Origin: Candidatus Saccharimonadota bacterium
Lineage (GTDB): Bacteria; Patescibacteriota; Saccharimonadia; Saccharimonadales; Saccharimonadaceae
Assembly: GCA_009777795.1 (NCBI GenBank)
Contig: WRLC01000002.1
Span: forward strand, 1-64,000
Length of the DNA: 64,000 nucleotides
Direction of reading: 5' to 3'
Shown here: positions 1 to 31,843 of the stretch, one piece after another
Numbering within the stretch: position 1 is the first letter of the stretch
Layout of the letters: each line of letters starts with the position of its first letter
Notes under the pieces: generated by a model
The model's input: only the letters and a program-made list of their open reading frames with translations
Told to the model about the DNA's origin: nothing
The model's database searches: none
Position numbers and translations under genes: made by a program

Positions 1-285
1 GGACTGTATGGGTGCCTGTACTATAGCCACCTGTAGAAATGTCAGTGCCAGTTAGAGTTAAGTCGATGGCTTGGTTATTGATGGCGGTGATGGTGATGCT
101 TTCGGAGACTGTGGCGTGGATGTTGGCAGAGGCTGTGTCGGTGTCTATGGAGTAGGTGGTGAGGGGGGATAGATGAAGGCCGAGGGTGATGATCAGCGTG
201 AGGCTAAGGAGAGAGAGGATGAGGCAGCGGAGATTAGGCATTGAATGCCCCCCCCCATAGCATTTTGCGTGTTTGCTTTACTCAT
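1..285 (-). CDS. Surface protein N-terminus, partial, G-tract phase-variable start
   Basis: The gene runs off the left edge, so only about 80 codons are visible. Reading from an ATG at position 241 gives a hydrophobic, Leu/Ile-rich signal or anchor segment of about 20 residues, then a Thr/Ser/Ile-rich extracellular-type sequence. A tract of nine G on the coding strand (248-256) lies between upstream ATGs (285 and 258) and this frame. From the 285 ATG the frame is one base short of joining the body, so a tenth G, or loss of two, would give a continuous protein. The ATG at 241 could also be used directly. The upstream promoter block matches that of the surface-protein gene ending at 16498, so the two are probably paralogous or co-regulated. 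Function is not recognisable. Confidence 0.6.
248..256 (-). repeat. Poly-G (C9 on plus strand) slippage tract
   Basis: Nine C on the plus strand (nine G in the coding sense) lie ten codons after the first ATG of the surface-protein gene, just before its signal sequence. Mononucleotide G tracts of this length are typical slipped-strand hotspots. One added base restores the frame from the upstream ATG. Confidence 0.75.
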
Positions 286-16497: not shown

Positions 16498-18140
16498 CTA
16501 GGGCGCGACACAACGGACAGAGTTGCCGCCGCCCTTATCGGTCGTGGTCGCAGGAGCGACATTGGAGCTGCTGAAGTACAGCCTGAAGGCAAGGGTGGTG
16601 GTGCTAACAGTAGAAGACCAATAGTAGCCGTATGAGCCCTGATTGAAGAATAAGCCACTGTAGAGGAGGCCGGCGTACATATAAAGGCCATTAGCGAAGA
16701 GGCCGCTTGGGCTAGAGGTTGAGCCGCCATTGAGAGTATTGTTGAGGAGAGTGAGCTCACCTACTGTGTCGCCAGTTGGTAAGCGCCAGCCGGAGGGGCA
16801 GATGTTGTAGATAGTAGTGCCCGTGGCACCTGCTCCGCTGCCGCCATTGACGGACTGGTTGGGTTGAGTGGCGGCGGTCGTCTGGCAAGCTGCTGATTGT
16901 CCGGCCATGGCGGTGCACCAGCTATAAAGGTAGCCGAATTGAGCTCGAGTGCTGGCTGGGCGGGCATCGATTGTCGCATTGTCAACCCCTACACCGCCAT
17001 CCGTAGCTCCCGACGGGTCGGTACTGCCAGAAGTTGGGTTGGCGTTCAAAGGTATCCAGTAGCACATTGCTGTGGGGTTTGCCGCCATAGTAGCGCCATC
17101 GCCATAGCAAGCCTGCCCACTAGCGATATTGGCGCCAGTGCCTTGAGTAAAAGGAGGTAAGGTATCGCCGTAAGTGTTGGTGCCACCCCCAGCATAAGCT
17201 AAGTTAGTCTCCATCCAGCAGAGGTCAGTGCCACCTGCTCCTGTGCCGTTGATGCGGCGGACCCAATAAGTGTTGCCGTCTCTTGCGTCCCTTACGCGGG
17301 TTCTGGTAGTGGGGCAGAAGTAGTTGCCGGGTGTACCATCAAGAGTGATGCGTTGGATGTCGGAGCCAGTGGGGGCTGCGATAGGTTGAGGTGGGAGGTT
17401 AGCGAGACCGGAGATAGTAATAAGGCCAGAGTATTGGTCGGTAGGGAGAGTGGGGCCAGCAGAAACAGCGAAGAAGATGTTGTAGAGGTCGTCGGTGGTG
17501 GTGGGAGCGTCGGTCGTGGAGAAGATGGTGGGGGTGGTGGGGAGGGCGGCGTATTTGGCAGTGTTGGTGGTATTGTCGATACCGAGGGCTTGATAGGTAG
17601 GGTCAAAGCCGTTAGGGAGATCGCCACCGGAGAGGACAGTGCCTTGGAGTTGGCCGCTCGGGATGGCAAAGCCCCATGCACCACCACTGGTCTGGGTAGC
17701 AAAGATGGCAGGGCTAGCGAGAGTGCCGACTGTAGGAGTGATGTGGGCTGTGTTGTCGCTATTGCTGAGGTTGCCGGTGGTGGGGCCTTGGATAGTGAGG
17801 GTGTAGCCGAAGGTGCCGTCAGTACTGATGGCGTAGGTGATGCAGTCGGCGACAAGGCGGAGGTTGCGGCTCTCGAGGGTGAGGGTGGAGGTGGTGGCAT
17901 TGTAGTTCTGGCAGGTGGTGTCGGCGAGGGAGGTGATGGAGAGTGAGCCGGAGGAGTTGTCGAGAGTGATGGTGTTAGCGAGATTGGCGTGGCCATAGTG
18001 GAATTGATTGGCGATAGTGGCGGAGAGGATTAAGAAAGCCGCGATACTGAGGGTCGCGGTGGATATGCGTTGGGCGATTTGGATTAAATCAAGCTTTGAA
18101 TCCCCCCCCCCAACTGTGTGTGCATTATTGTGCTTGTCAT
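16498..18140 (-). CDS. FISUMP-domain surface protein, G-tract phase-variable, currently out of frame
   Basis: A continuous open frame of about 535 codons runs from the G tract (18111-18102) to the stop at 16498. It encodes a hydrophobic anchor (ISTATLSIAAFLIL), a long Thr/Ser/Gly-rich extracellular region, and a C-terminal FISUMP-like domain (CPSGWRLPTGDTVGEL, YYWSS, VRCVAP). No ATG, GTG or TTG lies in this frame upstream. The ATGs at 18140 and 18125 are in another frame and hit a stop soon after the ten-G tract. One extra G (or two fewer) joins them to the body. Promoter TTGACT/TAAACT is shared with the gene at 1-285. It is probably a cell-surface adhesin-type protein switched by slippage. 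Confidence 0.75.
18102..18111 (-). repeat. Poly-G (C10 on plus strand) slippage tract
   Basis: Ten C on plus (ten G in the coding sense) lie between the first ATGs and the signal anchor of the FISUMP surface gene. The count leaves the body one base out of frame with both ATGs. Confidence 0.8.
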
Positions 18141-18167
18141 GCTTTGGCCCTTATCCTTGTTTATTTT

Positions 18168-18197
18168 AGTTTAGCATAGGCGGTTTGGGTAAGTCAA
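18168..18197 (-). promoter_or_regulatory. Promoter of phase-variable surface gene 2
   Basis: On the minus strand TTGACT (18197-18192) and TAAACT (18173-18168) are separated by 18 bp. Around the -10, 22 bases are identical to the promoter at 319-347. Confidence 0.6.
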
Positions 18198-31832: not shown

Positions 31833-31843
31833 GGGGGGGGGGG
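31833..31843 (+). repeat. Poly-G tract (G11) upstream of ybaB promoter
   Basis: Eleven G lie 24 bp before the TATAAT (31868-31873) of the ybaB-recR unit, roughly where a -35 element would be. It is the third long G/C run in the window. Length changes could alter promoter spacing or mark the edge of the decayed fragment next to it. Confidence 0.6.

Follow-up and report, generated by a model that had tools for sequence, protein, structure and literature searches.

A long reading frame without a start codon, separated from two upstream ATGs by a run of ten G, raises the question of whether the gene is broken, misread or switched off. Such a locus lies on the minus strand within the window, which here denotes the whole 64,000-nucleotide stretch analysed from a Candidatus Saccharimonadota bacterium. 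The initial annotation considered it a FISUMP surface gene turned OFF by phase variation, with a body open for about 535 codons and no start codon. The body was confirmed, at 533 codons up to the TAG at 16498-16500 (minus strand), and no in-frame ATG, GTG or TTG occurs before codon 295. It was also claimed, correctly, that the ATGs at 18140 and 18125 are joined to the body by a gain of one base or a loss of two at the tract: their common frame reaches a stop five codons beyond the G10 tract, and +1 G or −2 G would fuse it with the body frame. The FISUMP identity held as well. The features of the gene are as follows.

16498..18099, minus strand: FISUMP body frame, 533 codons plus stop, OFF by −1; dN/dS 0.27-0.64 against paralogues
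16507..17223, minus strand: Fib_succ_major (FISUMP, PF09603) domain, a Pfam profile match
18004..18093, minus strand: predicted N-terminal transmembrane or signal helix, body residues 3-32
18102..18111, minus strand: G10 homopolymer tract separating the start frame from the body frame
18123..18125, minus strand: second ATG, in the frame of the first, 14 nt 5' of the tract
18138..18140, minus strand: ATG start codon, 29 nt 5' of the tract
18148..18158, minus strand: Shine-Dalgarno-like AAGGATAAGGG, read from the sequence, the same in paralogues
18168..18197, minus strand: possible sigma-70-like promoter TTGACT-18-TAAACT 5' of the OFF gene, 9/12 matches

The PF09603 match (E 7.8e-10, 39.8 bits) exceeds the curated Pfam cut-off of 33.9. 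The product is predicted to begin with a membrane helix and to continue with a beta-rich domain; its C-terminal domain is FISUMP. Structure comparison found a weak resemblance of the N-terminal beta domain to FimA; the model of the FISUMP domain, of too low confidence to judge a C-type lectin fold, gave no fold match, and a weak Lcl_C match fell below cut-off. Neither the promoter nor the tract is persuasive in isolation. About one promoter match of this quality is expected by chance, hence the box is no more than a possible promoter, and a G10 run is not very rare in a window of 55% GC (0.59 overlapping matches expected, 3 found). When the 5' region was searched as DNA against 150 relatives, only paralogues in the same genome were matched; the nearest same-genus genome has no FISUMP gene at the position corresponding by GltX synteny, and the viral contigs searched yielded a single distant relative.

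The initial annotation overlooked that the gene belongs to a family. The source genome is a 559-kb draft, 63% complete, in seven contigs (C1, C2 and so on), with the window on C2. It contains 28 matches to PF09603, and all 22 family domains match this profile. Runs of at least eight G were listed across the genome and their contexts were then read. A G9-G11 tract is present in each of the 14 FISUMP genes whose 5' end is assembled; in ten it falls within the first codons and in four within a leader ORF. About 0.03 same-strand tracts would be expected at such positions by chance. It is this recurrence across FISUMP genes, not the lone G10, that far exceeds chance. The tract-bearing genes, and a second family member within the window, are listed below.

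C1 to C3: C1:27588, C1:118038, C1:137403, C2:18102 (the window gene), C3:51061
C4 and C5: C4:6493, C4:11207, C4:41305, C4:43621, C4:53092, C4:60981, C4:78558, C5:3899, C5:41513
Window 248..256, minus strand: G9 tract of the second family member, ATG at 283-285, −1 phase; the body leaves the contig end

Six more tracts with like surroundings are found where contigs end; two have identical flanks and may represent a single locus. Among the six, C3:812 shows FISUMP motifs and a length of 269 codons. Contig ends fall within this repeat family, as might be expected of a short-read assembly, the sequencing technology being unknown. Two 5' designs were distinguished. Class A consists of a Shine-Dalgarno sequence of the AAGGATAAGGG type, an ATG, about 28-30 nt and the tract, while class B has a conserved ATGTCGCACAAT stretch followed by G11. 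The class B tract directly abuts the body at C4:60981, C5:3899 and C3:812.

If the tracts act as switches, members of the family need not share one phase. Phase was read only in members whose body reaches 269 codons or more, 11 in all. All three phases are present: two members are ON (C1:137403 and C3:812) and nine are OFF, six at −1 and three at +1. Such a mixture is compatible with independent drift of each tract between phases, though it does not establish it. Tract length also differs where the surroundings do not. The window gene (G10) and its nearest paralogue, C4:78558 (G9), are identical at 59/60 bases upstream and 30/30 downstream of the tract. Between these mostly OFF bodies, dN/dS over the first 260 codons is 0.17-0.64 where computable; values below 1 indicate that the OFF frames have been maintained. 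The tract, the frames, the family, the mixed phases, the length differences between paralogues and the conservation of OFF bodies are all shown. Change of tract length is observed between paralogues and between species, and ON and OFF states across members, not at one locus.

Other in-gene tracts of the same genome served as controls. Seven of the eight G8-G10 tracts that were read are in frame, compared with 2/11 in the FISUMP family (P = 0.005), which argues against a general assembly error. Those in frame include uppS (G9), a MurC/Mpl-like ligase (G9) and glycosyltransferase-type genes (G8, G10), the names being our reading of the sequences. The sole exception, a zinc-ribbon membrane protein at C3:82284 with an internal G10, is possibly a further phase-variable gene.

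The same design was found in other genomes of the order. In G006, an independent assembly from another genus, seven surface genes have an ATG, 32-55 nt and a G9-G13 tract, three ON and four OFF. Three of these have PF09603 matches just downstream and the others share an N-terminal region; copies with 30/30 identical downstream bases have unequal tract lengths. In the genus of the source genome, G002 has one FISUMP gene with an ATG, 37 nt and a G9, in the OFF phase. A promoter-spacer arrangement was also observed, with a G9 between TTGACA and TATAAT near FISUMP genes in G023, and several tracts likewise set between −35-like and −10-like boxes in G009. The automatic tract classifier also flags internal tracts of ordinary genes, and its 5'-coding counts for G009 and G074 were excluded as evidence. 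As a separate observation, two membrane or secreted proteins of G003 have G9-G10 about 23 nt past the ATG, both in frame. Tracts of G9 or longer number from none to 96 per genome across the order (GC content not controlled), and this census suggests that the poly-G design distinguishes lineages. MutS_V was detected in only 2/151 genomes of the order. Near-absence of MutS throughout an order in which tract counts vary so widely means that repair loss alone is insufficient to explain the difference.

Slipped-strand switching of surface proteins is well known in host-associated pathogens. We consider it very likely that the window gene is a phase-variable member of a poly-G-switched, membrane-anchored FISUMP surface family. 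This reading is supported because each gene has its tract, ON and OFF members coexist, lengths differ between matched flanks and OFF bodies are conserved, and further because control tracts are in frame, the design recurs in other genera and MutS is nearly absent from the order. The comparative support is strong, and the switching itself is inferred. Under the proposed mechanism, promoter, Shine-Dalgarno sequence and ATG stand just 5' of the tract, and replication would add or remove G, shifting the frame. Slippage would go largely uncorrected because the order is (almost) without MutS. Translation would then either enter the body (ON) or end within a few codons (OFF), the state of the sequenced window copy. 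Since each tract would change on its own, the subset of the family on display would vary from cell to cell. Ongoing switching, surface display and a role in host-cell contact or phage escape are inferred. The suggestion that an episymbiont thereby varies its contact surface has a similar standing: episymbiosis rests on taxonomy alone (an order of Saccharibacteria), and the variation of the contact surface is inferred. The nearest named GltX stands at 75%, and those that follow it include Saccharimonas and Saccharibacteria. The earlier claim of phase variation is thus supported by the pattern of the family, while length change within a population remains inferred in the absence of reads or strains. 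Conservatively speaking, this is a reading from sequence alone, of a draft genome with a weak promoter match and without expression, read or second-strain data.

Three other explanations were considered. The true window tract may be one base longer and the gene intact, the shorter run being an assembly or sequencing error; a fixed tract of 11 G had been named in advance as a result that would refute the switch. Long G runs are error-prone, and a shortfall of exactly one base recurs in many class A tracts. Most of class A is one base short (6/8, or 11/13 with contig-end fragments), to which shared history or consensus bias may contribute. Against this explanation, control tracts of G8-G10 in uppS, the ligase, the glycosyltransferases and others are in frame in 7/8 cases, one added G would not bring the class B members or C4:78558 into frame, C1:137403 and C3:812 are already ON, and the independent G006 assembly has the same ON/OFF mixture. 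Error is therefore unlikely, and for the window locus it is still not excluded.

The remaining two explanations fare no better. If ribosomes made a programmed −1 frameshift on the G run, or transcription slipped there, the gene would be expressed constantly at some level; this idea could draw on the 6/11 readable members that need a −1 shift and on the inferred slipperiness of G GGG GGG. A fixed site, however, would conserve one phase, whereas other members with the same type of body are in +1 or 0 phase. We regard this as very unlikely, while noting that it does not exclude phase variation. A dead, decaying member with a frameshifted start is, if anything, harder to credit. The one available sequence does show the window gene out of frame, but the gene's 533 codons contain no other disruption, dN/dS against paralogues is below 1, the Shine-Dalgarno sequence and start are intact, and the sole disruption lies at a hypermutable tract, as it does in eight other members. 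Phase variation remains the preferred reading.

A second source of diversity, also absent from the initial annotation, is a diversity-generating retroelement (DGR). A reverse transcriptase (RT) at C1:120902-122098 (RVT_1, 3.6e-13) adjoins a FISUMP gene and a template repeat. Its best PDB match is 8ub7 (3.8e-27), which we take to be a DGR RT, and it carries IGNLTSQ; the motif IGxxxSQ is typical of DGR RTs. An ORF adjoining the RT had no match to the accessory (Avd) family. All 22 differences between the cis variable repeat and the template are at template adenines, with none at the 132 other positions. The repeat of the window gene is:

16499..16677, minus strand: variable repeat matching the template repeat at C1 (about 122150-122328)

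Here 21/50 template adenines differ versus 10/129 other bases (P = 3.5e-7). Altogether, 18 family repeats match the one template, and every one leans to adenine (P from 1.7e-14 to 0.015 per repeat; pooled P = 1e-83), with no adenine bias in the sequence flanking the repeats. The template and the variable repeats are shown directly. Repeats with few non-adenine differences are likely recent targets. The window gene is a trans member of the DGR, and its 10 non-adenine differences suggest either an older target or relation by descent; active retrohoming is inferred. A second RT, at C2:109828-110427, is accompanied by two repeats whose differences all fall at adenines (14/14), and probably marks a second retroelement.

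The DGR, whose template repeat matches gene 3' ends, would diversify the C-terminal tip of displayed proteins separately from the choice made by the tracts. In G006, the retroelement templates that were found do not target the tract genes, and the tract and DGR layers are therefore not always coupled.

Four class B members (C1:27588, C1:118038, C3:51061 and C4:11207) have the tract inside a leader ORF; next come a conserved element and then a FISUMP gene that has a start of its own. At C3:51061, as read from the sequence, the leader stop overlaps the FISUMP start. The element, of about 100 nt between the G11 leader ORF and the gene, contains a strong terminator-like hairpin (z −3.5 to −6.3). 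It was found in the source genome only, and Rfam has no family for it. An ftsK-like gene at C6:20203 may have a divergent version of the element upstream. The leader ORF, running towards the transcription terminator, could make termination depend on its frame, a phase-variable attenuation in this subset of members; such control is inferred. Joined together, the two layers suggest a bolder reading, in which these Saccharibacteria diversify their surface through binding tips altered by one DGR and poly-G choice among genes, in a subset by attenuation at poly-G leaders. We lean towards this joint reading, by a small margin. The combination of DGR and poly-G switching is more surprising than phase variation by itself.

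The tracts resemble the poly-G contingency loci of Neisseria, Campylobacter, Helicobacter and Bordetella. There, surface-related genes are turned ON or OFF by slippage of a G tract, placed either 5' in the coding region or in the promoter spacer, and copies differ in tract length. The FISUMP case differs in that each assembled gene of a single paralogous family carries a tract, in a reduced genome of Saccharibacteria type without detectable MutS. The retroelement resembles known DGRs (BPP-1 mtd; CPR DGRs, PMC10221324) in having an RT with the IGNLTSQ motif, a template repeat and target genes whose 3' ends differ specifically at adenines, and differs from them in that one template matches 18 repeats over many loci and the targets carry poly-G switches of their own. 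A hypervariable PTD-repeat gene in the CPR bacterium Gracilibacterium BD1-5 has been discussed with slipped-strand mispairing (PMC6851277); unlike the FISUMP family, it has 9-mer repeats in one gene and no homopolymer ON/OFF switch on a family. In the literature searched, which left out most subscription journals, we found no report of poly-G phase variation in Saccharibacteria or other Patescibacteria, nor any work joining DGRs with homopolymer switching of the same genes; novelty is unproven.

The means by which episymbiotic Saccharibacteria recognise their host cells and alter them are an open question, for which the FISUMP family offers named genes and a testable mechanism. If the reading is true, poly-G phase variation extends to a major, mostly uncultured group, and live surface genes would be scored as broken in consensus genomes of such organisms or fail to assemble there, the latter being a concern since many contig ends of the source genome fall in this family.

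Two further observations concern possible regulatory runs outside the family. A promoter and leader with a C9-C10 run (TATAATG...C9...) recurs in several same-genus genomes and is likewise without an Rfam family. Within the window, a G11 run at 31833-31843 stands immediately 5' of a TATAAT-like box, possibly a further transcriptional switch.
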